Source of the DNA: Clostridium sp.
GTDB taxonomy: Bacteria > Bacillota > Clostridia > Oscillospirales > Ruminococcaceae
Assembly: GCA_023664445.1 (NCBI GenBank)
Contig: JAMPFN010000004.1
Coordinates: 1-64,000 of the forward strand
Direction: 5' to 3'
Length of the DNA: 64,000 bases
This document shows positions 1 through 17,662 of the stretch, piece by piece. Within the stretch, counting starts at the first letter, position 1, and every line of letters begins with the position of its first letter. The notes beneath the pieces are model-generated. The model saw nothing but the letters and a program-made list of their open reading frames with translations, searched no databases and was not told the origin of the DNA. Both the position numbers and the translations under genes were made by a program.

Positions 1-2
1 AT

Positions 3-191
3 TATAGCGATACTTTTGATTTTATTGTTAATTCGCCGACAATAGAATCCGAACCTATGAGGCATGGCAAGTGGATTTCTAATGATTATAACCATTTCCA
101 TTGCTCTGAATGCCAACATGAACATGATAATCCTGAATATGTAACGCCCTACTGTCCAATCTGCGGGGCAAAGATGGAGGAAACTTGCTGA
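3..191 (+). CDS. C-terminal part of a zinc-ribbon phage protein (partial at window edge)
   Basis: The frame is open from the window edge to a TGA at 189-191, so the start lies upstream. The visible 62 residues contain HGKW followed by C-x2-C (CSEC) and, about 15 residues on, C-x2-C (CPICGAKM). This two-knuckle zinc ribbon ends many small Firmicutes phage proteins. The fold is visible, but the cellular role is not known. It sits 51 bases ahead of the GNAT-like gene in the same direction. Confidence 0.7.
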   Translation, partial: YSDTFDFIVNSPTIESEPMRHGKWISNDYNHFHCSECQHEHDNPEYVTPYCPICGAKMEETC

Positions 192-242
192 ATGTGAGGA
201 TTGTCCGTATTCAGGTAATTGTGATAAGGAGGTGACAAGGTA

Positions 243-728
243 ATGTTAGTACCTGCTATTTTATATAAGTCTGAGATCATTGCGAGATTTCAGCAAAAAT
301 TTTATACAGAAGATATGTTATTTGAAACTGCAAGTTTGCATAACTGGATACCAAATATTGCAGATGAACAGGATGAAAATGATTATCAATTTGCAATTAT
401 AGATGAAAATGAAAAGCTTATAGGATACTTAGGTTACTACATAGATTGGTACGGATCATGTGCTTCACAGTTCGGATTAATGTCTTTTGACAAAGGAAAT
501 CCTATTGTAGTAATAGATGTTTATAAGACAATTCGCAAATTGATTTATGAGTATAAATTACATAGAATTGAATGGAGAATGGTTGGCGGTAATCCTGTTG
601 AAAGACATTATGATAAAATATGCAACCGCTTCGGTGGAACAAAGCATATTCTAAGAGACGCTATAAAGGACCATAATGGCAATTATCATGATAATATTAT
701 TTATGAGATAATAATGAAAAATTCATAA
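243..728 (+). CDS. Putative GNAT-like N-acetyltransferase
   Basis: 161 residues. The ATG is preceded by a strong GGAGGTGA ribosome-binding site. The central part (IIDENEKLIGYLGYY) resembles the beta strands of the GNAT fold, and the C-terminal third (VYKTIRKLIYEYKLHRIEWRM, then a run ending in RFGG) resembles the helix-strand region that carries the acetyl-CoA pyrophosphate-binding turn. No substrate can be proposed. GNAT-like proteins are common in Clostridia phages. The assignment rests on fold-like pattern only, and a non-enzymatic relative is possible. Confidence 0.45.
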   Translation: MLVPAILYKSEIIARFQQKFYTEDMLFETASLHNWIPNIADEQDENDYQFAIIDENEKLIGYLGYYIDWYGSCASQFGLMSFDKGNPIVVIDVYKTIRKLIYEYKLHRIEWRMVGGNPVERHYDKICNRFGGTKHILRDAIKDHNGNYHDNIIYEIIMKNS

Positions 729-740
729 TTCAATCTGTAA

Positions 741-770
741 GGGTACTGTAAATTGCAGTACCTTTTTATT
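741..770 (+). terminator. Rho-independent terminator
   Basis: GGTACTG (742-748) pairs with CAGTACC (756-762) around a 7-base loop and is followed by TTTTTATT. It closes the GNAT-like gene transcript just before the promoter-like motif at 778. Confidence 0.85.
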
Positions 771-777
771 TAAGCAT

Positions 778-790
778 AATCGTTATTATA
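778..790 (+). promoter_or_regulatory. Early/middle promoter-like motif AATCGTTATTATA
   Basis: Exact copy of a motif found at nine intergenic sites in this window, always oriented toward the next gene. Here it follows a terminator and precedes the gene at 825; GTAGA follows three bases after it, as at the second copy (1701). The promoter function is inferred from position and recurrence. Confidence 0.55.
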
Positions 791-824
791 AATGTAGAAA
801 ACAATCTAAAAGAGGTGTTGTGAG

Positions 825-1013
825 ATGATTGAAGTTAATCATATATGTGATATGTGCGGTAATAAGATGTCACCAATTAAATCTGTAGATGATTTAGTCC
901 CTAAAAGTGCTACACAAGAATGGAACTTGCGTCTATTTGATATTTGTCCAATGTGTGCATTAAAACTTGATAATGAATTTCTCAAAATGAAATTACAACT
1001 TGTAAATGTATAA
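825..1013 (+). CDS. Small zinc-knuckle protein, unknown function
   Basis: 62 residues with two C-x2-C pairs (CDMCGNKM near the N terminus and CPMCALKL near residue 43), compatible with one bound zinc. RBS AGAGGTGTTGTG lies ahead of the ATG. It has its own terminator/promoter boundary on the left and is followed by the YopX gene. I do not recognise a more specific family. Confidence 0.65.
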   Translation: MIEVNHICDMCGNKMSPIKSVDDLVPKSATQEWNLRLFDICPMCALKLDNEFLKMKLQLVNV

Positions 1014-1099
1014 GCATGATGAGTCTGGAGACTATATTATGATCCAAAAGCTAAAGAACAAAACTGGTGGTGTTGCTAAAATGAAAGTAGTTGATAGAT

Positions 1100-1702
1100 A
1101 TGTCAGATAAAATAAGAATAGGTAAATGGAAATTTCACAAGGAACGTAATGGTGATATTACAAGTGGATATGATTATGATTACGGATACACTTGCTCAAA
1201 ATGTGGGTTTGAATTATCAAACAATTGGTATGGGTATGATGAGTTTAACAAATATCCAAGCATAAAATATTGTCCTGAGTGCGGTGCATATATGGGTGGT
1301 TCATATATCATGAATAATACTCCCATAAATTTATGCAGAGCAAAAACCTTATCTGATTTCGGTTGGATTGAAGGTCAATATGTGTATAGATATGCTAAAT
1401 CCGGTAACTTACATCATATTGTGCAAATGGTGGGGGAAGTTGCCATTGATATTAACACCTTATGCGAATTTACAGGTTTAGTAATAAACGGTACAAAAAT
1501 TTATACCGGAGATATATTGAGGTATGAATTGAATATGTATGAGGTTGTTAGGCAAGGTTATAAGTTTAACTTAAAAGGGTTTTATAAATCATCATATGAT
1601 ATTCCGTCTAATGCATTCTCAGAAGGGATTGATAAATTTGATTTAGTCGGTAACATATATGATGATGCTGAGCTGTTGGGAGATAGTTTCTTTATACATT
1701 AA
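1100..1702 (+). CDS. YopX-family phage protein with N-terminal zinc ribbon
   Basis: 200 residues from the ATG at 1100; a TTG three codons upstream (1091) is the alternative start. Residues about 30-65 carry CSKCGFEL and CPECGAYM, a zinc ribbon. The C-terminal half has the YopX signature: CEFTGLVINGTKIYTGDIL, then a beta-rich stretch ending in VGNIYDDAELL. YopX proteins are common in Gram-positive phages but biochemically unassigned. The fusion of a zinc ribbon to YopX is visible in one reading frame. The ribosome-binding site is weak. Confidence 0.7.
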   Translation: MSDKIRIGKWKFHKERNGDITSGYDYDYGYTCSKCGFELSNNWYGYDEFNKYPSIKYCPECGAYMGGSYIMNNTPINLCRAKTLSDFGWIEGQYVYRYAKSGNLHHIVQMVGEVAIDINTLCEFTGLVINGTKIYTGDILRYELNMYEVVRQGYKFNLKGFYKSSYDIPSNAFSEGIDKFDLVGNIYDDAELLGDSFFIH

Positions 1703-1713
1703 TCGTTATTATA
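1701..1713 (+). promoter_or_regulatory. Early/middle promoter-like motif AATCGTTATTATA
   Basis: Second exact copy, overlapping the stop codon of the YopX gene and 49 bases ahead of the gene at 1762. GTAGA again lies four bases downstream. Confidence 0.55.
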
Positions 1714-1761
1714 TACTGTAGATAATCTACATCAATAAACAATATATGGAGGATAATTAAT

Positions 1762-2073
1762 ATGTTTAGTGTAAAATTCAAAGGACTGTACAAGTACCTC
1801 AAGAACAACTGTACCTATTGTGTAGTAGGTTTTGCAAATTACAAGGTATCAGCTGATTCAAAAATTGAACGTATCGTAATTTTAAAGTATGTTAATGACG
1901 CAGAAGGTTTTCATGACAGCAGTATGACCGATGACGCAATTTTATTTCATGAGTTTGTATCAAGCGGTCACTTTATAGAGGTTGATGATCATGGTAATGA
2001 GATTAAAGAGGATGACGCTCCTAAATGTCGTGATGTTGTTGCACCGAATTACACAACATCTATCTGGGATTGA
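1762..2073 (+). CDS. Hypothetical phage protein (103 aa)
   Basis: Strong RBS (GGAGGATAATTAAT before ATG). The beginning (MFSVKFKGLYKYLKNNCTY) is beta-like and the C-terminal third is acidic (HFIEVDDHGNEIKEDDAP). There is no membrane segment or recognised motif. It is separated by four bases from the next gene, so the two are probably translated together. Confidence 0.6.
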   Translation: MFSVKFKGLYKYLKNNCTYCVVGFANYKVSADSKIERIVILKYVNDAEGFHDSSMTDDAILFHEFVSSGHFIEVDDHGNEIKEDDAPKCRDVVAPNYTTSIWD

Positions 2074-2077
2074 GCTT

Positions 2078-2305
2078 ATGGGACGAACATATAGGGTATG
2101 TCCTACATGTGGTATGGTTATTACAAATCCATACCACAAAAATCAAAGAAGATGTAACATCTGTATAATGAGCAGTCCGTATGACTTTACCTTTAAGCAA
2201 GGAAACTGTACAGTTCGGTTACATACAGAATTAATGTCAGATGCACAAATAACTAAGGCAATGCGTAAGTTAATGCCTTTGAGAAGAATAAAAAATTACA
2301 AATAA
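2078..2305 (+). CDS. Small zinc-ribbon protein (75 aa)
   Basis: ATG at 2078, four bases after the previous stop; a longer in-frame extension upstream overlaps the previous gene and is unlikely to be translated. Residues about 8-28 carry CPTCGMVI and a second pair CNIC, a zinc ribbon. The C terminus is basic (RKLMPLRRIKNYK), which would suit nucleic-acid binding. Function unknown. Confidence 0.6.
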   Translation: MGRTYRVCPTCGMVITNPYHKNQRRCNICIMSSPYDFTFKQGNCTVRLHTELMSDAQITKAMRKLMPLRRIKNYK

Positions 2306-2321
2306 TCGGAGATGATTTCAC

Positions 2322-3050
2322 ATGAGATTTATTGAACCAAGCTTTGAGATTCTTTCAGAGGATTTCACCAGAGAAAATGTTTTGAAAACCATTGAGCGTG
2401 CTGCAAGAACCTGTTACAAGTCGGAAGATAAGATTTGTGAAGGTTCAGCTGTAAAAATGCTCAATAACCTTATTAAGAGAGGTCATGAAGCAATGATCGA
2501 GCATGCGCCGAATCTGTCGGTAAGATTTATCTGTGACAGAGGCGTAACTCATGAACTTGTAAGACATAGATTATTTTCATTTGCTCAGGAATCTACACGG
2601 TATGTAAACTACAGCAATAAAGATATGCAGTTTATCATTCCGGAATGGGTAACAGGTAAAGACAGAGAATATATGCTGACCATTGAATTTGATGATTTGA
2701 CCGATTTATTTGAATTACTTACAGATAGCTGTAACAGAATATTTACTGATAGTTGCATTGATGCTGAAATTGTTTATTGTGATTTGGTTGAATGTGGTTG
2801 GAAACCTCAGCAAGCCAGAGCGGTTCTTCCAAATTGTATCAAAACAGAAATTGTTGTTACAGGTAATGTACGTGAATGGAGAAACGCATTCAAGCTTCGT
2901 ACAGACAAAGCGGCACATCCGCAGATGAGAGAGATCATGGTACCGCTGATACGCAAATTAAGTGAGGATATTCCTGAACTTTGGAATGACATCATAATCA
3001 AAAATGACTTATTGACATGGAAACCTGCGTATGAATTATGCAGTAATTAA
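2322..3050 (+). CDS. thyX: Flavin-dependent thymidylate synthase ThyX
   Basis: 242 residues. It methylates dUMP to dTMP using FAD, NADPH and methylene-tetrahydrofolate. The diagnostic RHRxxSxxxxSxRY motif is complete at residues 81-94. The C-terminal segment (TDKAAHPQMREIMVPL) matches the family's conserved substrate-binding helix. The length fits ThyX. It works with the dCMP deaminase on the minus strand at 17663-18136, which supplies dUMP, so the phage feeds its own dTTP pool. The ATG follows GGAGATGATTTCAC. Confidence 0.96.
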   Translation: MRFIEPSFEILSEDFTRENVLKTIERAARTCYKSEDKICEGSAVKMLNNLIKRGHEAMIEHAPNLSVRFICDRGVTHELVRHRLFSFAQESTRYVNYSNKDMQFIIPEWVTGKDREYMLTIEFDDLTDLFELLTDSCNRIFTDSCIDAEIVYCDLVECGWKPQQARAVLPNCIKTEIVVTGNVREWRNAFKLRTDKAAHPQMREIMVPLIRKLSEDIPELWNDIIIKNDLLTWKPAYELCSN

Positions 3051-3061
3051 ACAATAAAAAC

Positions 3062-3114
3062 AAGCCCATTCTTCTAACCTTATATAAGAATATAAAGGTA
3101 AGAAGGATGGGTTT
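3062..3114 (+). promoter_or_regulatory. Late-promoter-like ACCTTATATA nested in a long hairpin
   Basis: ACCTTATATA at 3077-3086 sits inside an imperfect hairpin. AAGCCCATTCTTCT (3062-3075) pairs fully, with two G-U wobbles, with 3101-3114, and an inner ACCTT/AAGGT extends it. The 3' arm contains the ribosome-binding site of the gene at 3118 and is followed by TTTATT. It can act as the thyX terminator for read-through RNA. A transcript starting just after the motif would lack the 5' arm and free the RBS. Confidence 0.6.
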
Positions 3115-3117
3115 ATT

Positions 3118-3348
3118 ATGGATAATTGTTTATGTTTATCATCACCTGATACGGATATATGTTTAAAACCCGGCAATCATGTAAAACTCGGACGATTTGA
3201 ACATGATAGGTGGTTAGTTTCATACGGTTGGTATACATGGGGCGGAAACCGTCCTGTATGTGGCTGGTATCTGGTAAGATGCGGAGATGACATAATAAAA
3301 CCGTTGCAATTACCGGATTTGGACGATATTTATATTATTGAAAATTGA
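3118..3348 (+). CDS. Small GWY-repeat protein, first of a tandem pair
   Basis: 76 residues, directly after the nested hairpin/promoter. Its body (RFEHDRWLVSYGWYTWGG, then GWYLVRCGDDIIKPLQLPDL and DDIYII) aligns with the N-terminal 70 residues of the next protein: the RF-x4-W-x-L/V-x3-GWY, then GWY, P-x-DL-x-DI-x-II pattern is shared. This indicates tandem domain duplication. It lies at the start of the tail-fibre region, so a virion or fibre-associated role is likely but unproven. Confidence 0.6.
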   Translation: MDNCLCLSSPDTDICLKPGNHVKLGRFEHDRWLVSYGWYTWGGNRPVCGWYLVRCGDDIIKPLQLPDLDDIYIIEN

Positions 3349-3360
3349 GAAGTGATTATA

Positions 3361-4125
3361 TTGAATTATATAACTATTCCATATACTTGTCAGCGTTTAT
3401 ATATAGGCAGTATAGTAATAATTGAAAGATTTCCTGATACTAAATGGGTATTACAGAATGGTTGGTATATGTATGAGAATCAGCAATATAATGGATGGTA
3501 TTTTTGTTCTGTACCGACTCGTACATCAATACCGGTTGAAGAAGATGATTTAGTAGATATTAAAATTATATCAGTGGGGCAAAGTAATAATGAATTTTGC
3601 ACACACAATCCATGTGCGTCTATACCTAATCATGTCCACCATTATAAATCTATTGAAAAATATTTACAAGGTGCTTCTTATGTATCAGGACAACTTGTTT
3701 ATTTAATACCTGGTAAACTATATCAAGTTGTTCATAAATTTCGATCAAGTTTAGGAATGTTTGTCGAAGATTGTTTAGATAAAGATGTGAAAAATGGAAA
3801 TTTAATACCAGTTGGACATGATGCTTCTGCTAAGTGCTATGGTCTGAATTTTAAGAGTGTATTTAATAGCGATATTCCAACTATTGAAATGACTAATGAA
3901 TATTTGAACAATATCGGAATAGAACCAACATCAGGTATAACTTTTATAAATACAGATGTTACATCGGTAACATATTTAGAAATATTTATATATACAACAG
4001 TAAATATAGATAATGAGTCTACACTTGTACTTACACAACCTATGAGCAAATATTATTCAAAAAATGAAATAGATGAAAAATTTATATATGCATCAGAAGA
4101 AGATGTCAGAAAGTTATTTGATTAA
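3361..4125 (+). CDS. Tail-fibre-region protein with N-terminal GWY domain
   Basis: 254 residues from a TTG at 3361, chosen because GAGAAGTGATTATA lies at the right distance; GTG at 3352 is the alternative. Residues 1-75 duplicate the preceding small protein. The remainder ends in YYSKNEIDEKFIYASEEDVRKLFD, the kind of C-terminal segment seen in fibre and baseplate accessory proteins of Clostridia phages, and the next protein ends with a similar YATEDEIAALWE. A structural role is inferred from this and from position. Confidence 0.55.
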   Translation: MNYITIPYTCQRLYIGSIVIIERFPDTKWVLQNGWYMYENQQYNGWYFCSVPTRTSIPVEEDDLVDIKIISVGQSNNEFCTHNPCASIPNHVHHYKSIEKYLQGASYVSGQLVYLIPGKLYQVVHKFRSSLGMFVEDCLDKDVKNGNLIPVGHDASAKCYGLNFKSVFNSDIPTIEMTNEYLNNIGIEPTSGITFINTDVTSVTYLEIFIYTTVNIDNESTLVLTQPMSKYYSKNEIDEKFIYASEEDVRKLFD

Positions 4126-4178
4126 TATGGTCTTTTGACTTTATTGATACATTTATTATTTTATAGGAGCTGATTATT

Positions 4179-4718
4179 ATGACAAACAAAATTATTACTC
4201 TTGAAACACTTCAGGCATTTCAGCAAGAAACAAAAGGTTATATTGACCGGCAAGATGGCATTGCAATTAAAGGCGCTAAATATGCTGACAATGTACTTTC
4301 ATTCTATAGGACCGAAGATATGACCGGAGATCCTGATATATCTCTAAATTTTCCTGAAGAAATGTTTCTTGATCAAGCTAAAACTAAACTTGTAAGCAAT
4401 TTTACATGGAGTGATACACTTTATCCGGGATCGACCGATCCAAGTTTGGAAGGTAAATCTGTCCTTATTCTTGCTGTTAAAGGTGATACGTCAGTTGAAT
4501 ATAGTTTTATATCTTTGGATACGCTTATATCCATTTATGTTGGAACTGATACCAATACTGCGACAACAACAGTTGATAACAATAAGATTTCAACTGTTGT
4601 TAAAATTTCAAAAGTAGAAGGGAATATTCTTGAGTCTAATGAAGATGGTTTATATGCAAAGGCAGTAGCTGATCTTACTTATGCGACAGAAGATGAAATA
4701 GCTGCACTTTGGGAATAA
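4179..4718 (+). CDS. Putative tail-fibre-associated structural protein
   Basis: 179 residues, RBS AGGAGCTGATTATT. It begins ITLETLQAFQQETKGYIDRQ, like N-terminal attachment segments of phage fibres. The middle is beta-rich with Thr-rich stretches (GTDTNTATTTVDNNK), and the end is LTYATEDEIAALWE. It is followed by a terminator and then the long fibre gene. No enzymatic motif is visible. Confidence 0.55.
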   Translation: MTNKIITLETLQAFQQETKGYIDRQDGIAIKGAKYADNVLSFYRTEDMTGDPDISLNFPEEMFLDQAKTKLVSNFTWSDTLYPGSTDPSLEGKSVLILAVKGDTSVEYSFISLDTLISIYVGTDTNTATTTVDNNKISTVVKISKVEGNILESNEDGLYAKAVADLTYATEDEIAALWE

Positions 4719-4725
4719 GGATTTT

Positions 4726-4760
4726 AGAGTATCTTCCATATTTGAAGATGCTCTATTTTA
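4726..4760 (+). terminator. Rho-independent terminator
   Basis: AGAGTATCTTC (4726-4736) pairs with GAAGATGCTCT (4744-4754), 11 bp with one G-U, followed by ATTTTAT. It separates the 179-residue protein from the fibre gene. Confidence 0.8.
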
Positions 4761-4780
4761 TAATTAGGAGTGATTATAAA

Positions 4781-6466
4781 TTGGATAAACCAATTTCTTT
4801 AAAAAACTTAATTGCTTACACAAAGGCATTAAAACAAAAAATAGACAAAAAGGTTGATAAAATTTCAGGTAGGGGACTTTCAACCAATGATTTTACAGAC
4901 GACGAAAAAAGCAAGCTTTCGGGAATAGAAGTGGAGGCACAGAAAAACAGTATTACCGGCGTAAAGGGCAATGCGGAAGGCTCATACAGAACAGGAAACG
5001 TTAATCTTACTCTGGCAAATATCGGTGCGGCTTCGGCTTCTCACACTCACAATTACGCAGGCTCTGCAAGCGCAGGAGGGGCGGCAAATTCAGCTGTTAA
5101 GTTAGACGCCTCGGCAGGAACGGCAACACAGCCTATATATTTCAGTGACGGAAAGCCTGCTGCGTGTACGTATACGTTATCTAAAAGCGTTCCGGCAGAT
5201 GCAAAATTTACTGATACTAATACAGTATACACCCACCCTACATCGTCAGGAAATAAGCATATTCCGTCAGGCGGTTCAAGCGGACAAATTTTAAGATGGA
5301 GTGCGGATGGTACAGCGGCATGGGGTGCGGACAATAACACCACATACTCAAACTTCGTTAAGTCAGGCACGGGCGCGAAATCGGGCTTAGTCCCTGCACC
5401 GTCGACTACGGCAGGCACAACGAAGTATCTACGCGAAGACGGGACGTGGCAAGTTCCACCCGATAATAATACTGACACTAAAGTAACAGAAACTAATACT
5501 ACCACGAGTGGGGCATATAGATTACTATTATCTGGTAATGCTAATGATACCACAGAAACAACTACAGCAAGAAAATCGACTAAATTTACAGCCAATCCCT
5601 CAACTGGGGAATTAACAACTTCCAAGATAACATCATCTCTACAATCCTCAACATATCTTGCTGCAAACCAAGGTACGGCAATAATTAATTCCACGGCAGC
5701 AAAAGGATTTAATATGCTTGCAAAAATGAATTCCACTAATGGAGTATTTACTCATGGTGTATATAATGAAGCATATCGGTTTTATTATACGCCAAAAACT
5801 ACAATAGATGCTGGAACAAATAGTGTTAGTAAAACAGTCACATTATTGAATGAGTCTGGGAATACGGAGTTTCCGGGAACAGTCACAGCTTCAACATTCT
5901 CGGGTTCATTATCTGGAAATGCGACCGGAATAAAGGATTATGCTGGATCTACAACAATTTCTATAGGATATTCAGGAGCATCAGCAACAGCCACACAAGC
6001 AACCTATCCAGCGGTTTATACAAGTCTTAGTGGAACTGCGATAAAGGATACGACATGGCCGAATTTTGCAGAAAAATTACAGTCAAGCGGCTATAGTGGT
6101 TTTAAACAAGAGGTTATTTATAGTATATATACAAGCGGACATAGCGCCATATCTTGGGGTAGCACATATAATGAAACGAAAATCACATTAAAAGCAACCA
6201 ACTGGAATGATATCCTGTGGGAATTCTCAATGGGTAATGGAGAGGCTTCATCATCACTACATTATGAATTTACTTGTACAATTCCGGTCAGAATGATAGC
6301 TAATGGGGCAGGTGCGGCTTATATGTATGGTAATGATATGGGTCATGGAATTGCAACTATACGTAAAGACGCCAATACATTAATAATACGCTGGAGCGAA
6401 AGTTATGGGTTATGGTTCAAAAATAACGACGCTTATTTAAGACTTGAGTTGACAAAATTATTATAA
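4781..6466 (+). CDS. Long tail fibre / receptor-binding protein
   Basis: 561 residues from a TTG start preceded by AGGAGTGATTATAAA; a longer in-frame reading from 4709 crosses the terminator and is rejected. Residues 1-35 form a helical attachment segment (LKNLIAYTKALKQKIDKKVDK). The middle has fibre signatures: GLSTNDFTDDEKSKL, HTHNYAG, GGSSGQILRWSADGTAAWG and REDGTWQVPP. The C-terminal ~120 residues (ending YLRLELTKLL) look like a unique receptor-binding head. Bases about 4900-5460 are clearly richer in G+C than the flanks, which suggests a mosaic domain swap. Confidence 0.85.
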   Translation: MDKPISLKNLIAYTKALKQKIDKKVDKISGRGLSTNDFTDDEKSKLSGIEVEAQKNSITGVKGNAEGSYRTGNVNLTLANIGAASASHTHNYAGSASAGGAANSAVKLDASAGTATQPIYFSDGKPAACTYTLSKSVPADAKFTDTNTVYTHPTSSGNKHIPSGGSSGQILRWSADGTAAWGADNNTTYSNFVKSGTGAKSGLVPAPSTTAGTTKYLREDGTWQVPPDNNTDTKVTETNTTTSGAYRLLLSGNANDTTETTTARKSTKFTANPSTGELTTSKITSSLQSSTYLAANQGTAIINSTAAKGFNMLAKMNSTNGVFTHGVYNEAYRFYYTPKTTIDAGTNSVSKTVTLLNESGNTEFPGTVTASTFSGSLSGNATGIKDYAGSTTISIGYSGASATATQATYPAVYTSLSGTAIKDTTWPNFAEKLQSSGYSGFKQEVIYSIYTSGHSAISWGSTYNETKITLKATNWNDILWEFSMGNGEASSSLHYEFTCTIPVRMIANGAGAAYMYGNDMGHGIATIRKDANTLIIRWSESYGLWFKNNDAYLRLELTKLL

Positions 6467-6479
6467 TCAGGAGGAAAAA

Positions 6480-7115
6480 ATGTTTATTAAATTAAACGAA
6501 GATAATTCGATCGATAGTATAATTACTGTTGGTTTACCAAATGAAGAGGACAAATATATCGAGGTCGGCGATATTACGGATGATATTAAAAAAAATATTT
6601 TTTGCTATAAATATATCAATGGGGAGTTCGTTCTTAAAGATAATGCTGATGAAATACAGCTCCGGCGTATTCGCAATGCAAAAATTAATGCGATGAGTAA
6701 CATTTGTCATAATATTATTATTCATGGATTCGATTTTGAAGACGGGCATCACTATTCGTTAAAAGAAAGCGATCAAAATTCATTGAATGTGCTATCTCTT
6801 AAAGCGGCGCAAGGTTTAAATACTGCGTGGCATTATGACGGTGGATATATTAGATTTTATACTCCGGAAGAAATGCTTAAATTGACCGGACATGCCTTTA
6901 GGTTCATCACCTATCATCAAACATATTTCAATCAGTTAAAAGCGATGATCAATAATATGGATAATCTTGATGATATTATTGCAGTACAATATGGCATCGA
7001 ACTTACCGGTGTTTATGCTGAAAACCTTGAAAGAATTACTGATGGTTTCAAGCCGCCTGTAGAATTAATACAAGATTTGATCGATTATGATAGATTATTA
7101 AATGGGTGGATTTGA
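6480..7115 (+). CDS. Putative tail-fibre assembly / DUF4376-like protein
   Basis: 211 residues, RBS GGAGGAAAAA, 13 bases after the fibre gene. The N-terminal 60 residues look like the short beta domain of fibre-assembly proteins. Residues about 62-130 (RRIRNAKINAMSNICHNIIIHGF, then YSLKESDQNSLNVLSLKA) match the pattern of DUF4376-type tail proteins, in which substrate residues alternate with a conserved helix. It probably acts with the upstream fibre. The family name is given from memory of the pattern. Confidence 0.5.
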   Translation: MFIKLNEDNSIDSIITVGLPNEEDKYIEVGDITDDIKKNIFCYKYINGEFVLKDNADEIQLRRIRNAKINAMSNICHNIIIHGFDFEDGHHYSLKESDQNSLNVLSLKAAQGLNTAWHYDGGYIRFYTPEEMLKLTGHAFRFITYHQTYFNQLKAMINNMDNLDDIIAVQYGIELTGVYAENLERITDGFKPPVELIQDLIDYDRLLNGWI

Positions 7116-7334
7116 GTGTGGCTGTAGTGTTATTCATTTATCTATGACGGTACTTGATTTTGAGATTTATCAAGTAGATCAACATATTTTATTTTTTAAC
7201 ACTATTTACTGTTATCACGTTGTTAATGAGTTTATAACTAAATTTATTATAGAAGTACTATCAAAATTAAGAATATAATGTGATTAAACAATCTAACCTT
7301 ATATAAGAGTATAAAGGTAGGAAGGTGTTTTTTG
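7116..7334 (+). promoter_or_regulatory. Intergenic region with late-promoter-like ACCTTATATA
   Basis: No gene is visible here. ACCTTATATA lies at 7296-7305 within an imperfect stem (7293-7303 against 7310-7320, ATA/TAT with ACCTT/AAGGT-like pairing) directly ahead of the gene at 7335. TACTTGAT/ATCAAGTA also forms a short stem near 7152-7177 without a T tract. The arrangement copies that at 3062-3118 almost base for base around the motif. Confidence 0.5.
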
Positions 7335-7952
7335 ATGAATCAATATTTAAATTTAGAGGGGTTTAATACCTTGGTTGATATTATAAAGTCATGTCTGAAA
7401 AAGAAATCTGATGTTGATCATACGCATAATGCATCCGATATCGGAGCGTTGACAGATATACAAATCGGAACTGTTAAAACCGGAGCATCTGGGAGTTCGG
7501 CATCAGTTTCTGCTACTACCAAAGGGTCAGTTTCTATACTTGATTTTACTATTCCGAAGGGAGATAAAGGAGTTAAAGGCGATAGAGGTAATGACGGAAC
7601 AAGTGTTACAATTACAAGTACATCTATAACATATGTGGCATCATCAAGTGGTACAATAATACCTACAACTGCTTGGTCATCTACAATCCCAATAGTGTCA
7701 TCAGGACAATACTTGTGGACAAAAACCGTTGTTAATTATTCAACGGGAGATTCTACAACGTCATATAGTGTATCAAAAAACGGCACAGACGGTAATACTG
7801 CTGATTTGGTAACTCATAGTAGAAATGGTTTAATGTATTCTGTTGATAAAATTAAACTTGATGGATTGCCGAATATAACATATGGTACAGATGATTTGAC
7901 CGCAGGAACTTCATCTCTTACTACTGGCGATATATATTTAGTATATGAATAG
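7335..7952 (+). CDS. Collagen-like tail protein
   Basis: 205 residues; the ATG at 7335 is used, preceded by GGAAGGTG. It contains VDHTHNASDIGA, a short Gly-x-Y stretch (PKGDKGVKGDRGNDG) and a segment typical of Firmicutes phage tail proteins (GTIIPTTAWSSTIP, GQYLWTKTVVNYSTGDSTTSYSVS). It ends MYSVDKIKLDGLPNITYGTDDLT. It is likely a fibre or adhesin-type structural component; the collagen run would trimerise it. Confidence 0.75.
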   Translation: MNQYLNLEGFNTLVDIIKSCLKKKSDVDHTHNASDIGALTDIQIGTVKTGASGSSASVSATTKGSVSILDFTIPKGDKGVKGDRGNDGTSVTITSTSITYVASSSGTIIPTTAWSSTIPIVSSGQYLWTKTVVNYSTGDSTTSYSVSKNGTDGNTADLVTHSRNGLMYSVDKIKLDGLPNITYGTDDLTAGTSSLTTGDIYLVYE

Positions 7953-7963
7953 GAGATGAACAT

Positions 7964-9169
7964 ATGCCAAAAAAAGTTTATGTTGGAATAGGAGATAAAG
8001 CAAAACAAGTTAAGAAGATTTATTTAGGAGTTGACGATAAAGCAAGAAATGTTAAAAAAGGATATGTTGGGGTAAATGGAATTGCAAGACAATTTTGGCC
8101 TAATGAAGATTTACCTATTAAAACTAATACTACTCTAACATTACAACAAGGAAGAGCTTGGATGGGTACTACAACGCTTGGAGAATATGCCGTCTTTGGA
8201 GGCGGTTTGGGTTTTTTTAATGAGTCATCAAATTCGTGGATCTTTGCTCCATCAACAAAAATTGATGCTTTTGATAAAAATTTTGCCCAATATAGTCTAA
8301 CAACAGAAACAGGTTCTGTACCTGCATTAATAAATATTAAGGATAATGCTCTAACAATAGGAGATTATGCTTTATTTGGTGCTAATGGCTCTTCTCATAC
8401 AAATCAAAGTAAACCTATAACAGTATATAATAATTCTCTTTCTCGTTTAAGTCCGATAGAGTTATCTTCACAAAGATATGATGTAGCTTCAACAACCATA
8501 GGAAATTATGCTTTGTTTGGAGGAGGAAATGGGTCGTCAGAAAGTTCAGGTGTAATATCAAATATAGTAGATGCCTATGATAAAAATCTTAGTCATTCAA
8601 CTCCTACTGCATTAGCACAAGAAAGATCGTATGCGGCAGCAACAACAATAGGGGATTATGCATTATTTGGCGGCGGTACTAACAACGGAGCTATAGATAC
8701 AGTAGAAGTTTATGATAAAAACTTAAACAGAACAACTCCTATTTCATCACTTGTTTCTCCATCTTGGGGAGGAGCAGCAACAACAATAGGGGGTTATGCA
8801 TTATTTGGTGGTGGAGTTAGTGATACGATTGGCATTAATGTAGTAACTGCATATGATAATAATTTAAATAGAATAACTCCGACTTATTTATCTGAAAACG
8901 CTTATATGCCTATGGCAACCAATACAAAAAATCATGCTATTTTTATTATAGGACAAAAAGCATCAGCCAATGTTTCTGCAAATTTTACAAATATAATAGA
9001 TCTTTATGATGAAACTCTACAACGTCATAGCTTGAAATCATCAATTAGTGCAGGAGGTATAAGTGGTATTACAATTAAAGATCATTTGCTAATTGGTGGA
9101 GGTTATTATCAAAATAGAGCAAATTCAACTCCTATTTATTATAATAAAATAGAAGTTTATGATATCTAA
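7964..9169 (+). CDS. Kelch-like beta-propeller tail protein
   Basis: 401 residues. The N terminus has three short repeats (KKVYVGIGDKAKQVKK / KIYLGVDDKARNVKK / GYVGVNGIARQFW), a known prefix of Firmicutes phage virion proteins. From about residue 60 onward, at least five repeats follow the pattern xATTIGxYALFGGGxxxxxxxxVxAYDKNLxxxTP, kelch-type blades that would fold as a beta-propeller. It probably binds carbohydrate or protein at the cell surface as part of the tail tip. RBS AGGAGATGAACAT. Confidence 0.75.
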   Translation: MPKKVYVGIGDKAKQVKKIYLGVDDKARNVKKGYVGVNGIARQFWPNEDLPIKTNTTLTLQQGRAWMGTTTLGEYAVFGGGLGFFNESSNSWIFAPSTKIDAFDKNFAQYSLTTETGSVPALINIKDNALTIGDYALFGANGSSHTNQSKPITVYNNSLSRLSPIELSSQRYDVASTTIGNYALFGGGNGSSESSGVISNIVDAYDKNLSHSTPTALAQERSYAAATTIGDYALFGGGTNNGAIDTVEVYDKNLNRTTPISSLVSPSWGGAATTIGGYALFGGGVSDTIGINVVTAYDNNLNRITPTYLSENAYMPMATNTKNHAIFIIGQKASANVSANFTNIIDLYDETLQRHSLKSSISAGGISGITIKDHLLIGGGYYQNRANSTPIYYNKIEVYDI

Positions 9170-9192
9170 CTATCAAAGGAGGAATTTTTAAT

Positions 9193-9537
9193 ATGAAAAT
9201 AATTGAAAAATATACTGGAGAAAAAACTTACATGTACCCTAATGGCACAATTGCAAGTAAAGAAGTTGTTCTTGAAAATACACCCGCAGCTCTTATTTTT
9301 ACACATATAGTAGAAACCGATGAAAACAGGGAAGTAATGTGGGCATTACAAAATCTTTCGGCAATGCGTACAATGTATGGAATAGATTCTGAACTTTCCG
9401 AAGAAGAAGCGATTCTTGCTATTCAAGAGTTTATCAATACTCCCCCAAAAATTGATGATTCTCCAACAGCAGAGGAAAGGATAGCAGCTGCACTTGAATA
9501 TCAAGTTATAGCATCAATGGCAGATATAGAAGAGTAA
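9193..9537 (+). CDS. Conserved tail-region hypothetical protein (114 aa)
   Basis: RBS AAAGGAGGAATTTTTAAT precedes the ATG. It is acidic and largely helical after a short N-terminal beta hairpin (KYTGEKTYMYPNGTIASKEVV). The position immediately before an XkdX-type gene is typical for Clostridia phages. No motif permits a function. Confidence 0.6.
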   Translation: MKIIEKYTGEKTYMYPNGTIASKEVVLENTPAALIFTHIVETDENREVMWALQNLSAMRTMYGIDSELSEEEAILAIQEFINTPPKIDDSPTAEERIAAALEYQVIASMADIEE

Positions 9538-9549
9538 GGAGGAGTTACT

Positions 9550-9678
9550 ATGAATTTTGAAACAATAAAAAAGAATTTTGAACATAATCTTTGGACAGCG
9601 CTTATGGTAAAGATGGCAGTTAAAAAAGGTATTATTTCTAAAGAACAGTATGAAGAAATCACAGGAAACAAGTATTGA
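9550..9678 (+). CDS. XkdX-family small tail protein
   Basis: 42 residues, too short for most gene callers. The product runs MNFETIKKNFEHNLWTALMV and ends KKGIISKEQYEEITGNKY. It fits the XkdX pattern of an N-terminal W/F-x-x-I-K-x-x-Y-x-x-x-L motif followed by G-x-I-[ST]-x-E-x-Y-E-x-I-T-G. The RBS is AAGGAGGAGTTACT. Its TGA overlaps the upstream sequence of the next gene's RBS. XkdX proteins are part of PBSX-like tail modules. Confidence 0.8.
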   Translation: MNFETIKKNFEHNLWTALMVKMAVKKGIISKEQYEEITGNKY

Positions 9679-9692
9679 CAGGAGGAATATTC

Positions 9693-11504
9693 ATGCCCAA
9701 AGAACTTTGGAATGAAGGCAGAGTAGTAGGATATTCAGCATATGAAATGTATGTAAGGCATGCATTAGCTGTTGACCCTGGACATAAACCGGCAAGCGAA
9801 AAAGAATGGCTTGCTTCTATGATGGCTATGGGTTCTTCAATGCTGCTGAAAGTCGGTAAAGACCCTGACGGGACGAGTTATGATACAGTTCATTATAGGG
9901 ATATACCGCTTCCGGCTGATTCAAGACTGTGTGCCGCCAATACTATTACAGCGTCATTATTTGTTGGCAAAAGTGATAAAGCAGATGATAACACTACATC
10001 TGAATGGTGTACAAAGGTGACTGATTATGGTCCGCTGATAAGTAATACATCATCATCTTCCCCTAACGGTACATTAGGATATAGAACTTCTGTTCCATCT
10101 AAGTCAATTAGCAGTAAAATTTTTGATGAATATAAGCAGTCTATCAGAGAGTATGCAAATATAATTGATGGAATTGTTATACAACCGGGAAAATGGGAAC
10201 CAAACCCTGATACGCCTCCTGCAAAGGATTTTGAACCATCATTGTCAGCTGCTCCAATGTTAAGAATTGCATTCCGAAGCCGTGTAACATCAACATTTTA
10301 TATACTGTTTACAGGCTTTACAAACCGTTCGGTAGTTGACGGTCAGACAGGATTCGGTTCAGCTGTGAACACGCCTTCACCGGCAGACGGTGATTTCTTG
10401 GGACCTTGGCAGTTTCCTTGGGCTAATAAAATTATTTTTACTGTACCTTCTGTACTTGCGGAACAATTCAAACCAAACATTGGTGTGAAACAAGGTTCGG
10501 ATGGTAAACCTTTAATCGCTTTTACAGAAGTTGATGATAAACATATCGATGCATTATCTATGGCTGATGAAGTTGGTACATTATATGCTCTGAATGGGAA
10601 TAGTGGTTCTGTTGATTTGGAACTTAAATACAAATCAACTGACAATTACATTTCAAGGTACGAAGGTTCATTTACATGGGAAACCCTTATCAATATGCTT
10701 CATTTTAATAAAAAATGCAGTATAAAATTGGAAATAAAATCGGTTGATCCAAATAATTTTACTGCTATTGATATAACGCCAGTTCTGCTAAACAGCTGTA
10801 CAGATGGTGTATCTGCGCTTTTCAAGTTTGGGAAGGATTCTAAAATAGCACGCCTTAAAATTCCTGATACTGGAGATGGTTGGGATAATTTAGATACTGT
10901 TAAATATGATGGATATTTCAGAATGATAATCAAACTTAACACTACAGAAGTGGGTACTACTTCTAAGTTTACAATAGAATTATGTGCTTTGTTAAAAAAA
11001 GCTATTACATTTATATCTACAGAATCTAATACACGCTGGGATTCAGGATTCTATTGGAGAGGAAATTTTAATAATGATGATATACGACCTATATTTGGTA
11101 CTGAACCTCCCGGATATCAGAGTAACTTAGGAACACCTATAACTAAGACCGGAGTTTGCGAAGGGATAAATAGAAAACTGCATAAAACATTCAAAGCAGA
11201 TTCTACAGGGATTAATTGGGGCTTAGATTTGACGTTTTCAGCTTCACCATTAAGTGGTGATAATAATGATCCTATAGTACTGATTGACAAGAGTTATAAT
11301 TATGGGGGAGATATTGAAAATCCAGGTAATTTATCTTTGATAGTCGGTGCTAATGTTAATAACATAGAATATACGTATAAATCGGCTAATGGAATATCAC
11401 TACGTCCAACTTTATCTGATAGATCCCTTTCACTTGATGAATATACTGAATTGATAGACAATTCTGCAGTTGTACGTAGTTGTAGTGGTGTTTATTCAAT
11501 ATAA
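9693..11504 (+). CDS. Large virion structural protein of the tail-fibre region
   Basis: 603 residues; the ATG at 9693 follows ACAGGAGGAATATTC, and an upstream in-frame TTG at 9675 is rejected. The N terminus (PKELWNEGRVVGYSAYEMYVRHAL, then KPASEKEWLASMMAMGSSMLLK) is a helical block I associate with structural proteins of Firmicutes phages. The rest is beta-rich with no enzyme motif (FYILFTGFTNRSVV, DGDFLGPWQFPWANKIIFTVP). It is a likely baseplate or fibre component by position and composition. Confidence 0.55.
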   Translation: MPKELWNEGRVVGYSAYEMYVRHALAVDPGHKPASEKEWLASMMAMGSSMLLKVGKDPDGTSYDTVHYRDIPLPADSRLCAANTITASLFVGKSDKADDNTTSEWCTKVTDYGPLISNTSSSSPNGTLGYRTSVPSKSISSKIFDEYKQSIREYANIIDGIVIQPGKWEPNPDTPPAKDFEPSLSAAPMLRIAFRSRVTSTFYILFTGFTNRSVVDGQTGFGSAVNTPSPADGDFLGPWQFPWANKIIFTVPSVLAEQFKPNIGVKQGSDGKPLIAFTEVDDKHIDALSMADEVGTLYALNGNSGSVDLELKYKSTDNYISRYEGSFTWETLINMLHFNKKCSIKLEIKSVDPNNFTAIDITPVLLNSCTDGVSALFKFGKDSKIARLKIPDTGDGWDNLDTVKYDGYFRMIIKLNTTEVGTTSKFTIELCALLKKAITFISTESNTRWDSGFYWRGNFNNDDIRPIFGTEPPGYQSNLGTPITKTGVCEGINRKLHKTFKADSTGINWGLDLTFSASPLSGDNNDPIVLIDKSYNYGGDIENPGNLSLIVGANVNNIEYTYKSANGISLRPTLSDRSLSLDEYTELIDNSAVVRSCSGVYSI

Positions 11505-11521
11505 ATATTGTGGAGGATAAT

Positions 11522-11923
11522 TTGAAAATATATATTAAATCTGCAACGCAAGGCAATATGTCTGCCAGTCAACAGGTCAACAGGTTAGGAAAATATCTGT
11601 ACAAGCATCTTGATGGAGCATATAAGTATATGAAATCCGGCAATATGTATGATGTTTACTGCACTTTGCTGTATCAGCTTAAACCAGAATGCGGCGGTAA
11701 AGTCAATGATGTTCAAGAAATGACGATCAATATCAATATTACTACATATCAGAACAAAATCAGAATAAACACAATTGAAATGACACCGGAAGAAAGAACT
11801 CTTGGTTATGACACAATGAAACCCGAAGAAATGAGCGATTTGAAACAGGCGATGGAAATTATCATCTGGAAGGTTGGCAATAAAATCAGGAAGGCTTATA
11901 AAGATTATCTGATCCTTTTCTGA
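11522..11923 (+). CDS. Hypothetical protein with KIYIKSA-type N terminus
   Basis: 133 residues from a TTG at 11522, placed by TGGAGGATAA; an in-frame GTG at 11510 would overlap the RBS. It begins KIYIKSATQGNMSAS, resembling the starts of the proteins at 26304 and 60339. The rest is mixed helix/strand with a basic C terminus (VGNKIRKAYKDYLILF). Function unknown. Confidence 0.55.
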   Translation: MKIYIKSATQGNMSASQQVNRLGKYLYKHLDGAYKYMKSGNMYDVYCTLLYQLKPECGGKVNDVQEMTININITTYQNKIRINTIEMTPEERTLGYDTMKPEEMSDLKQAMEIIIWKVGNKIRKAYKDYLILF

Positions 11924-11956
11924 TTTGAATTTCAAAATATGTGGAGGAATGAGTAA

Positions 11957-12559
11957 ATGGAGATTTCATTTTATCCCAGATGTCAGCTTGGTATGGAAAT
12001 ATATTTTTCTCCTGATTCTGATAAGTTTTCAATAATTAAGCTTGATGATAAGTATTATATCCGCATTAAAAATCCTGAACGGGAGTGGATATATCCTACA
12101 TGGAAAGAGAATAAATTCAGAACATTTGATGAAGCTCAAAGTTGGCTGAGTTTACATGATTGGGAAAGTGCAGATCATGACCATATTAAGTATGATGATT
12201 CTGTATTCATCAATATGGCGTTTACAGCACTTTCGGACAGACAATCTGTATTGGCTGCGATCAATACCAAAAATCTTGCCAATGACCTTGTAAGGGTACG
12301 TTCATCAAACGTCTGGGCATATGGATTGAATATCAAAAACCGAAAGGATAAAACAGGAGATTTATTGGTACAGTTTAAGAATAAAAACGGCGGTGCGGGT
12401 GATGTGTATATCTACTATGATGTTCCTGTTATGATATATCGCCGCTGGCAGTCTGCACCAAGTAAAGGGCATTACTTTTGGGTGTATATAAGAAACAATT
12501 TTAATTACAGCAAGCTGACCGGGGATAAACGCGGAAAGCTTGGAAATGCAGTTAATTAA
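11957..12559 (+). CDS. KTSC-domain protein
   Basis: 200 residues, RBS TGGAGGAATGAGTAA. Residues about 115-190 match the KTSC pattern: SSNVWAYGLNI, then GDLLVQFKNK, YIYYDVPVMIYRRWQSAPSKGHYFWVYIRNNF. The S-x-x-x-x-x-GY, L-x-V-x-F, Y-x-Y-x-x-V-P and A-x-SKG-x-[YF] elements are visible. KTSC is a small domain, often at the C terminus of phage and prophage proteins and suspected of binding a ligand or nucleic acid. The N-terminal half is unassigned. Confidence 0.7.
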   Translation: MEISFYPRCQLGMEIYFSPDSDKFSIIKLDDKYYIRIKNPEREWIYPTWKENKFRTFDEAQSWLSLHDWESADHDHIKYDDSVFINMAFTALSDRQSVLAAINTKNLANDLVRVRSSNVWAYGLNIKNRKDKTGDLLVQFKNKNGGAGDVYIYYDVPVMIYRRWQSAPSKGHYFWVYIRNNFNYSKLTGDKRGKLGNAVN

Positions 12560-12572
12560 GGAGATGGAGTAT

Positions 12573-13034
12573 ATGAAAGTTTATAAGCATAGAATAAGTG
12601 CAGCAACCAATTCCGCACAAGGATCAGGTACTACATATTATTTAGTAACATTCGATCAGATACAAAAATTTTTCAATGGTGAAGATTCTAATGTCTGGAT
12701 AGGAAAATCTTTTGAAGAACTCGGATGGGCCGCTATTGATTTTGACAACAATTTGTTCGGAAGTCAGATTATAGGCGATGACTTGTATATATGTGTTACT
12801 GACGGCAAAGATATTGAGGTTAATGGTGATTTAGTAAATCCGGAAGAAGCTTTGGAGATTTGTGCACCGGATGATCTTTCAGAATATATTAAATCTGCTT
12901 CTAATGGGATTATTCAAAGGTATATCACGGAATATGAAATTGTCATGCCTGATTTTGATAACTGGGCTGCCGACCTTCTTGAAGATAATATCAGCTTTTC
13001 AAGAATGGTATCGGATTTTCATGAATTTGATTAA
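12573..13034 (+). CDS. Hypothetical acidic protein with MKVYKHRISAA N terminus
   Basis: 153 residues; the ATG at 12573 follows AAGGAGATGGAGTAT. It is acidic (many D and E) with an internal SEYIKSASNG stretch resembling the N-terminal tag of its neighbours. It is the last gene before the strong terminator at 13038, so the fibre-region transcript ends here. Function unknown. Confidence 0.55.
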   Translation: MKVYKHRISAATNSAQGSGTTYYLVTFDQIQKFFNGEDSNVWIGKSFEELGWAAIDFDNNLFGSQIIGDDLYICVTDGKDIEVNGDLVNPEEALEICAPDDLSEYIKSASNGIIQRYITEYEIVMPDFDNWAADLLEDNISFSRMVSDFHEFD

Positions 13035-13037
13035 TAA

Positions 13038-13077
13038 AATAATAAGCAAGTCAATATCTACTGACTTGCTTATTATT
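13038..13077. terminator. Strong bidirectional terminator
   Basis: AATAATAAGCAAGTCA (13038-13053) pairs perfectly with TGACTTGCTTATTATT (13062-13077). It is the boundary between the tail-fibre region and the AT-rich accessory cassette. Confidence 0.9.
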
Positions 13078-13134
13078 TATCTCTATAATGTGATCTGCAC
13101 TGAACACTTTTATCATCTTAATTTACCTCATGAC

Positions 13135-13159
13135 ATAGCACAGCCTGTTTTTGTGCTAT
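13135..13159 (+). terminator. Weak terminator-like hairpin
   Basis: ATAGCACA (13135-13142) pairs with TGTGCTAT (13152-13159). The T tract lies within the loop side rather than after the stem, so termination is uncertain. It lies at the left edge of a 963-base stretch (13078-14040) without a protein-coding gene. Confidence 0.35.
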
Positions 13160-13271
13160 AGTAGATTAATAGTGAAAATAAAAAAGTGAATAAAATTAGA
13201 TATGTACCATATAAATTAAATGTGATACCAAACAGCAACTGAAAATTGTGCAAAACGTCTAAAACTCTAAC

Positions 13272-13300
13272 TTGACATATAATTTAAAATATGATATAAT
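13272..13300 (+). promoter_or_regulatory. Consensus sigma70/SigA-type promoter
   Basis: TTGACA (13272-13277), a 17-base spacer and TATAAT (13295-13300): both hexamers are perfect. It drives rightward RNA into the non-coding stretch upstream of the metallo-beta-lactamase-fold gene. Use of the host housekeeping sigma factor sets this cassette apart from the phage-type motifs elsewhere. Confidence 0.8.
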
Positions 13301-13333
13301 AAATAATTGCTTTTTTATATTTGTGTAAATTTG

Positions 13334-13403
13334 AGCTACCTTCGAGAAAATTAATTTTCTCTTGTTTCAATCTTCATGTAGCAAGCCTAATTGAAATTGT
13401 AGC
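13334..13403 (+). ncRNA. Possible pseudoknotted 5' RNA downstream of the consensus promoter
   Basis: About 34 bases after the promoter, GCTAC (13334-13338) can pair with GTAGC (13378-13382, or a second copy at 13399-13403), enclosing the stem-loop GAGAAAATTAATTTTCTC (13344-13361). TTTCAAT (13365-13371) can pair with ATTGAAA (13390-13396), which interleaves with the first stem as an H-type pseudoknot. The following stretch to 13660 is AT-rich and shows no open frame with a ribosome-binding site. RNA function is speculative. Confidence 0.3.
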
Positions 13404-13669
13404 AAAGAAACCCAATATTTTTCCATATCAAGTCGAAAGAAAAGACATAAAATAGCAATAACAATGTAACTATGGGGAATATTTATTAGTGAAATAGTTT
13501 TAATTGTAAGTGGATTTACTATACGTAATTTGTTAATCAATAACAATTAAAAACAGTATACTTTGCAAAAATACAGAAAAAGTACATAATTACTTTCTTG
13601 CTGAATTTTAAACACTTTTGTGCAACCTTACAATTTTTTCGATTTTTCAAGATTTTTTCTCTCAAATAC

Positions 13670-13698
13670 TTGACATTTCCTGAAAAAAGTGATAAGAT
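13670..13698 (+). promoter_or_regulatory. Second sigma70-type promoter
   Basis: TTGACA (13670-13675), 17-base spacer, TAAGAT (13693-13698). It would start the leader RNA that precedes the gene at 14041. Confidence 0.7.
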
Positions 13699-13820
13699 AA
13701 ATGAGTTGATAAGTTTACGCTGTTGTGTGATATAGACAAATTTCTCCTTTGAATTTGTTTATATGCAACAAAATTCAAAAATTAAATACAAATAAAAAGA
13801 ATATGTTAAGTGCATATAGT

Positions 13821-13970
13821 ACCTGAGAAAGCAGGTGGCATGTGAAGCCAGTCATAATATCCTGCCGAGGGAAGTTATAAAAATAAGACCGTTGTGAATG
13901 GATTGATTTCTATAGGGGAAGATGACTTTATTGACTTTTTCATAGAGATAGTTTGAACAACGGTTTTTAT
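13821..13970 (+). ncRNA. Structured leader with transcription attenuator
   Basis: ACCTG/CAGGT (13821-13825 with 13832-13836) competes with GCAGG/CCTGC (13831-13835 with 13861-13865), so two folds are mutually exclusive. TGGC/GCCA (13836-13839 with 13847-13850) forms a small hairpin between them. ACCGTTGT (13888-13895) then pairs with ACAACGGT (13957-13964), followed by TTTTTATT, a terminator ahead of the gene at 14041. The architecture is that of a riboswitch-like or protein-controlled attenuator, but it matches no riboswitch class I know. Confidence 0.5.
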
Positions 13971-14040
13971 TATATAGATTTTATCAAAAGTATTAATTAT
14001 CTGTGGAGTTGGAAAATAACCTAATAATGAAGGTATTGTT

Positions 14041-15471: not shown

Positions 15472-15549
15472 ATTTAAAATAGCATTGTTATTAAGTGTGC
15501 TGATAGAATTAAATTGTTTATAATAGAAATAAAACCGGGGTGACATAAA

Positions 15550-15954: not shown

Positions 15955-16133
15955 ACATGAAAATTTGGGAGGAACTTGCCTTAATTAGGGAAGCTTTTGA
16001 AAAACAGCCATTACAACGTCTGAAAGTTGAAGAAGACAGAGGTGGATATATTGATAATGAGGAAGAAAACGAAGAGTATAAAGGTAATCTAAAGGATGGT
16101 TTTTATGGTATGTACTGTAAAAGCAGAAAGTGA
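15951..16133 (+). CDS. Small acidic protein of the MBL cassette (60 aa)
   Basis: Starts at the ATG in the ATGA overlap with the previous gene; RBS AGGAGG nine bases upstream. The central acidic run (DNEEENEEYKGN) sits between a helical N terminus and a basic tail (CKSRK). No homologous family is recognised. Overlap and spacing argue for a real operon member. Confidence 0.5.
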   Translation: MNMKIWEELALIREAFEKQPLQRLKVEEDRGGYIDNEEENEEYKGNLKDGFYGMYCKSRK

Positions 16134-16145
16134 AATAAATAAAAT

Positions 16146-16694: not shown

Positions 16695-16802
16695 AATATC
16701 AATTTCTCTTGATATATGGATAGATTTAAAAATATGAAAGTCATACATATTTCTAAAATATTGTCAATTTGATATAAATGTGATACTTTTATTAACTAAA
16801 GT

Positions 16803-17537: not shown

Positions 17538-17570
17538 TTTGATTCCTCCTCGTATAAAATTCCTCTAACT

Positions 17571-17655: not shown

Positions 17656-17662
17656 ATAGTTT

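Follow-up and report, generated by a model that had tools for sequence, protein, structure and literature searches.

Predicted late promoters with inferred starts inside RNA hairpins in a group of uncultured gut and rumen phages

Background

Late promoters lying inside hairpins that hide a ribosome-binding site are described for phage T4 genes e, soc, 49, 25, and 26, for I-TevI, I-TevII, and I-TevIII, for segB, and for mobE of Aeh1 in the sections of two publications cited here (PMC2988022, PMC3014915). The T4 hairpin-gated late genes have so far been treated as separate cases. For Staphylococcus phage K and Kayvirus, the cited part of PMC7698491 describes late promoters of the form TGTTATATTA, with a long −10 box, no −35 element, and a start 6 bp after the box.

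Here, the layout recurs across an uncultured phage group, in a precise register, in a terminator version, and at a second promoter class. As in T4, so far as those sections describe it, the late promoter lies in or beside the 5′ arm, the long early RNA would hide the ribosome-binding site, and the short late RNA would lack the arm. The group differs from T4 in its promoter motif (AACCTTNTATA, not TATAAATA), in the lack of a gp55 match, and in phage lineage. With Kayvirus, as portrayed in the cited part, it shares a long −10 box without a −35 element and an equal start spacing, whereas the motif differs and the hairpin arms open 23–30 nt before the start in phage K compared to 4–9 nt in the group. 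Ordinary intrinsic terminators located ahead of a promoter likewise put a stem and a U-run behind the preceding gene; unlike these, the terminator version found here has the inferred start inside the stem and would act on incoming RNA only.

Source sequences and promoter motifs

The window, i.e., the whole stretch of DNA that was analysed (64,000 nucleotides), comprises bases 1-64000 of contig C102 (68,180 bases) within a 2.83-Mb bacterial assembly. It is part of a contractile-tailed phage; its genes include those for a terminase, a tail sheath, tail-fibre-like proteins, a DNA polymerase in pieces, and a clamp loader that carries an insert. Another contig of the same assembly, C146 (63,710 bases), carries nine further exact copies of AACCTTNTATA, all on the coding strand, as well as tail-tube-like and major-head-like genes, and is probably a second contig of this phage or of a very similar one. 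Judged by the sheath protein, relatives are virus contigs of IMG/VR and contigs from three named bacterial assemblies, among them that of Ruminococcus callidus ATCC 27760, which has this sheath gene on a contig of 144,696 bases. Named phage records gave no match in a nucleotide search with window positions 1-20000 or in a protein search with the sheath. The group consists of large, little-known, uncultured gut and rumen phages. The tail sheath (61833-63938) has a dockerin type I Pfam match at residues 220-275 (E 3.8e-5, above the cut-off), and the host of the phage with this sheath is probably Ruminococcus-like. The clamp-loader gene (43826-45781) is interrupted at residues 104-411 by some 300 aa with profile matches to unrelated phage genes, probably an intein.

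Motifs were surveyed in 21 contigs or contig pieces, namely the contig of the window, C146, and 19 from relatives. The 174 copies of AACCTTNTATA are strongly biased in strand (167 on the coding strand versus 7 on the opposite one), and the motif is real. Of the coding-strand copies, 128 intergenic ones (two of them identical copies, G003 and G006) were analysed, and 39 inside open reading frames, including the window site at 50940, were set aside. Counting the first A as 0, the intergenic sites have T or C at position 15 in 107 cases and a purine (A/G) at position 16 in 114, and no fixed letters were found in the 15 bases 5′ of the motif. This pyrimidine-then-purine step suggests that transcription starts 6 nt past AACCTTNTATA, at position 16, and the motif would then act as a late promoter of extended −10-like type that lacks a −35 element. 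The second motif, AATCGTTAT, occurs 183 times in coding direction versus 17 times opposite, and its 136 intergenic sites have T at position 15 in 104 cases and a purine at position 16 in 124, matching the first motif in both step and distance. In C102 and C146, AACCTTNTATA is followed by tail-tube, major-head, and sheath-operon genes and AATCGTTAT by genes for helicases, an SbcC-like protein, a single-strand-binding protein, and a DNA methyltransferase; by this gene content, "late" and "earlier" appear to be reasonable names for the two. Copies of the second motif in the window are:

778, 1701, 26223, 32704, and 35589: promoter-like motif AATCGTTAT, start spacing as for the late motif; precedes replication-type genes in the phage group

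A late sigma factor was sought on C102 and C146 and no Sigma70_r2/r4 match was obtained; the gp55 search gave no match below E 0.1 (best E 0.11, on other contigs). The T4 late box TATAAATA was rejected as the motif of the window, where 14 plus-strand and 5 minus-strand copies lie scattered. In several relatives, AACCTTNTATA recurs within coding sequence, some 420–430 bases ahead of the start of a gene; in C146, the gene downstream of such a copy is major-head-like.

Hairpins at the seven sites of the window

The late motif is present at seven places in the window, all on the plus strand, which a sequence-only reading had already linked to hairpins. For each inferred start, ddG was determined as the folding energy lost on cutting the RNA there. 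Two controls were applied: the upstream and downstream halves were exchanged among sites (swap; 50940 is absent there, being filed as inside an open reading frame), and the best of the hairpins that open near the motif was compared with 60 dinucleotide shuffles per site at all seven sites (shuffle). The sites are, with ddG in kcal/mol:

3076-3086, plus strand: late motif AACCTTATATA; inferred start 3092; ddG −19.8; swap p 0.00; shuffle p 0.00
7295-7305, plus strand: late motif AACCTTATATA, before a tail-fibre-like gene; inferred start 7311; ddG −3.3; swap p 0.43; shuffle p 0.17; hairpin within chance
26250-26260, plus strand: late motif AACCTTATATA, short hairpin; inferred start 26266; ddG −2.8; swap p 0.50; shuffle p 0.53; within chance
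39400-39410, plus strand: late motif AACCTTATATA; inferred start 39416; ddG −12.1; swap p 0.00; shuffle p 0.00
50940-50950, plus strand: late motif AACCTTATATA, hairpin alongside at about 50949-50984; inferred start 50956; ddG −4.3; shuffle p 0.12; within chance
60897-60907, plus strand: late motif AACCTTATATA; inferred start 60913; ddG −9.9; swap p 0.00; shuffle p 0.00
61587-61597, plus strand: late motif AACCTTATATA, before the sheath operon; inferred start 61603; ddG −1.1; swap p 0.77; shuffle p 0.42; hairpin within chance

The sequence-only reading had placed a hairpin at all seven motifs, each making a switch between a long and a short transcript, and had proposed this as a genome-wide rule. 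Its observation is partly confirmed, being real and over-extended. The hairpins at 3062-3114, 39410-39438, and 60907-60940 exceed both the shuffles and the swaps, with ddG from −9.9 to −19.8; the other four (ddG −1.1 to −4.3) stay within the range of shuffled sequence (p 0.12–0.53). What it had said of the 3′ side holds at the three confirmed sites, where a ribosome-binding site (3062-3114, 39410-39438) or a terminator (60907-60940) is found. Sequence evidence speaks well for the switch at three of the seven sites and, over the group, at about 30% of the late sites (38/128). As a genome-wide rule it fails: 90 of the 128 late sites are without a strong straddling hairpin (ddG ≤ −8), and only 2 of 13 orthologous sites at the sheath operon pass the threshold. 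The start-in-hairpin layout is gene-specific, applying to about a third of the predicted late starts. The three hairpins and their neighbouring genes are:

2322-3050, plus strand: thyX, ThyX thymidylate synthase (PF02511 E 4.5e-44, phrog_85), the gene upstream of 3062-3114
3062-3114, plus strand: start-straddling hairpin; 3′ arm has ribosome-binding site AAGGA at about 3103-3107
3118-3348, plus strand: 76-aa protein of an uncharacterised family ("KLGRF...GWYSWGGNRPVCGWYL"), with orthologues in relatives and no Pfam or PHROG match
36412-38955, 40188-40913, 41236-41757: DNA polymerase A gene in three open reading frames (DNA_pol_A pieces)
39410-39438, plus strand: hairpin region enclosing ribosome-binding site GAGGT at about 39417-39421 and the start codon at 39429
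39429-40148, plus strand: GIY-YIG homing endonuclease (PF01541 E 5.2e-8), in the segment splitting the DNA polymerase gene
60905-60942, plus strand: intrinsic-terminator-like hairpin; 5′ arm opens 8 nt before the inferred start, which lies inside the stem

At 3062-3114 and 39410-39438, the layout is that of the T4 type, with the late promoter in or against the 5′ arm and the ribosome-binding site on the 3′ side, and co-oriented genes (thyX and DNA polymerase, respectively) lie upstream of the genes at 3118 and 39429. The short RNA is predicted to free the ribosome-binding site at both, the probability of being unpaired rising from 0.00 in the long RNA to 0.52 (3062-3114) and 0.55 (39410-39438). 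At 60905-60942, a stem of −24.4 kcal/mol is directly followed by a U-run; truncation at the inferred start reduces it to −12.6 kcal/mol, and the last 8 nt up to the former stem end become unpaired.

The endonuclease splitting the DNA polymerase (replication) gene resembles in outline the T4 I-TevI arrangement as sketched in the cited sections. No Rfam intron was found, and an Rfam scan of the window returned zero matches at gathering scores and one sub-threshold match (41052-41203). The first DNA polymerase open reading frame contains an intein-like domain, and the endonuclease occupies the first gap. The promoter regions 3074-3106 and 7293-7325 are near-identical over about 33 bases, with the upstream 5′ arm missing from the latter. 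At 50949-51020, another inverted repeat comes after the hairpin beside the late motif; this stretch has no clear ribosome-binding site and no U-run.

Hairpin excess across the phage group

Mean ddG over the 128 intergenic late sites is −5.78, compared to −3.35 in shuffles with the motif fixed and about −3.5 in swaps, and 27 sites reach p ≤ 0.01 in the shuffle test. The excess grows with the threshold: 38 sites are at ddG ≤ −8 (the two swap controls give 8.7 and 8.5), 17 at ≤ −12 (1.2 and 1.0 by swap), and 10 at ≤ −15 (0.2 by swap). Along the sequence, the ddG profile of these sites has its maximum at 0 to +6 relative to the inferred start, whereas control leaders without either motif (n = 645) have no peak at the corresponding position. 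Hairpins are in excess in these control leaders too (78 of 645 reach −8 versus 27 by their own swaps), and the late sites stand above them with an odds ratio of 3.1 (p 2e-6). As a held-out set, a dozen more pieces of relatives' contigs, 536,829 bases in all, were fetched later and treated with the same definitions; some come from contigs that had already contributed other stretches to the analysis (G405, G407). In this set, 4 of 12 late sites (0.8 expected, p 0.007) and 6 of 47 second-motif sites (2.1 expected, p 0.017) reach −8. The motif, its strand bias, the T/C-purine step, the hairpin excess and its replication, and the alternation at one orthologous gene (see below) are all computed properties of the sequences.

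This simple statistic, which measures how much folding energy a cut at the start removes, recovered known T4 cases. Among 32 T4 TATAAATA sites used as a positive control, the four lowest ddG values belong to two gene e sites, one I-TevII site, and one I-TevIII site, and the hairpins of these three genes are published cases in the cited sections (PMC2988022, PMC3014915). At the same threshold, 5/32 T4 sites are counted versus 38/128 in the phage group, and the terminator form was not seen among the T4 late sites. In phage K, 4 of 10 exact TGTTATATTA sites are straddled at ddG ≤ −12, three of them with a U-run. One phage K late motif (L182, record position 111932) lies within a hairpin inside the GenBank-annotated terminator 111908-111962, and another (L177, about 37049) within a hairpin just upstream of the annotated holin gene.

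Effects on ribosome-binding sites were scored at the 110 of 128 sites with a recognisable site downstream of the start and near a gene (18 unscored). Mean predicted openness rises from 0.262 in the long RNA to 0.475 in the short RNA; changes of at least 0.4 are gains at 28 sites and losses at none, and changes of at least 0.25 are gains at 40 and losses at 2. By its predicted working, this ribosome-site form would be a T4-type device, yet it is not filed as a T4 late promoter because the promoter differs and there is no gp55 match.

Inferred starts inside predicted terminators and explanations for them

Terminator-like hairpins near starts were pooled (51 late, 69 second motif). Those wholly upstream within 60 nt (28 late, 34 second motif) form a separate group, and those wholly downstream within 60 nt are few (3 late, 2 second motif). 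At 24 sites (8 late, 16 second motif), including 60905-60942, the inferred start lies 4–9 nt inside the stem of a predicted intrinsic terminator, a stable stem directly followed by a U-run. The 5′ arms thus begin in a cluster at −9 to −4, a six-base window picked after inspection of the histogram, against backgrounds of 0.98 and 1.2 (Poisson p 9e-6 for late and 3e-13 for second-motif sites). In the held-out set, 1/3 late and 2/14 second-motif terminator-like hairpins fall into this register. The presence of the terminator form at the second promoter class AATCGTTAT had been missed in the sequence-only reading.

Cutting at the inferred start lowers the mean stem stability from −18.1 to −7.1 kcal/mol. 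Between what remains of the stem and its former end, a median of 7 nt are then unpaired; the exception among the 24 truncated terminators is a single one that refolds with no gap. An intrinsic terminator requires a stem that adjoins the U-run, and the short RNA with its gap should therefore read past. Of the two forms, the start-in-terminator one, predicted for both promoter classes, is the less familiar; a search of the open-licence literature found no phage case of a promoter inside a terminator, which does not imply absence from print.

We consider it likely that at roughly a third of its sites the late promoter AACCTTNTATA starts inside a hairpin that silences or terminates the long RNA and leaves the short RNA free, with start sites, timing, and effects on termination and translation being predicted from sequence. 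Earlier RNA from upstream promoters would carry the whole hairpin. Where the 3′ arm holds the ribosome-binding site, this long RNA would stay untranslated; where a U-run follows, it would be terminated there. RNA begun at the late promoter would lack part or all of the 5′ arm, so that the ribosome-binding site would be exposed, or only the upper stem would form, about 7 nt from the U-run, and termination would not occur. The promoter would thereby be insulated from read-through at no cost to itself. If true, the genes that must be kept silent in early RNA could be read from sequence alone, and promoter, insulator, and timing device would be combined in a single short element.

Three other explanations are less probable. 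Compact genomes might merely place the upstream gene's terminator and the following promoter together in a single short gap, with no regulatory value; this would fit the position of the 24 sites, of which 22 come after a co-oriented gene, 17 of them within 60 nt. We nevertheless regard it as unlikely, as the overlap occurs in one precise register (−9 to −4), terminators wholly downstream are almost absent, ordinary upstream terminators form a group of their own, and the ribosome-site form is left unexplained. Saving of space and insulation are compatible, and packing may coexist with insulation. Still less credence is given to the hairpins being 5′-end stabilisers of late mRNA, relevant in the short RNA only: although an upper stem (mean −7.1 kcal/mol) persists at the 5′ end of the short RNA, or close to it, in the terminator form, the pairing that reaches 4–9 nt upstream of the start and the U-run after it would be absent from, or useless to, that RNA, and where the hairpin hides a ribosome-binding site, the short RNA no longer has the stem and the site opens. 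That the inverted repeats are DNA operators for a phage regulator rather than RNA elements is very improbable: they overlap the promoter start region, and T4 I-TevI represses its own late promoter via an overlapping operator according to the cited section of PMC2988022, but the repeat sequences vary by site and phage while the pairing persists, and the terminator forms have their U-run on one strand only (0/24 pass the terminator test on the opposite strand).

Variation among orthologous genes

The gene for the 76-aa protein allowed comparison across phages. At E 1e-25, 22 distinct loci were obtained, of which one (L200) was dropped as it has no motif; the remaining 21 include five with variant motifs. 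A straddling hairpin (ddG −8 or better) is present at 11 of them. An intrinsic terminator lies within 130 nt upstream at 9 of the 10 hairpin-less loci versus 1 of the 11 with a hairpin (Fisher p 3.5e-4), an alternation that had been spotted by eye in some of these sequences before testing and that concerns related loci (the L199 and L201 proteins are nearly identical). On the family tree, which is poorly resolved, the hairpin label is scattered (7 changes versus 7.3 when shuffled), and the sequence of the arms varies between phages. Among loci with an exact or near-exact motif, 10/16 reach −8 versus 12.5% of within-family swaps.

We lean, by a little, towards the view that a start inside a terminator is a self-exempting insulator at two promoter classes (late genes and replication genes), and that at a given gene evolution swaps freely among a terminator-embedded start, a hairpin over the ribosome-binding site, and a terminator standing separately upstream. 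As a general law, exclusivity of hairpin and terminator finds no support beyond the 76-aa gene: it is weak over all late sites (26/12 versus 53/37, p 0.33; second motif p 0.13) and absent over gene families (stratified z −0.7). Counts of straddling hairpins per family, with up to one mismatch allowed in the motif, are:

76-aa gene: 9/12
GIY-YIG: 4/5
about 108-aa family: 6/12
sheath-operon leader gene: 2/13
947-aa family: 0/9
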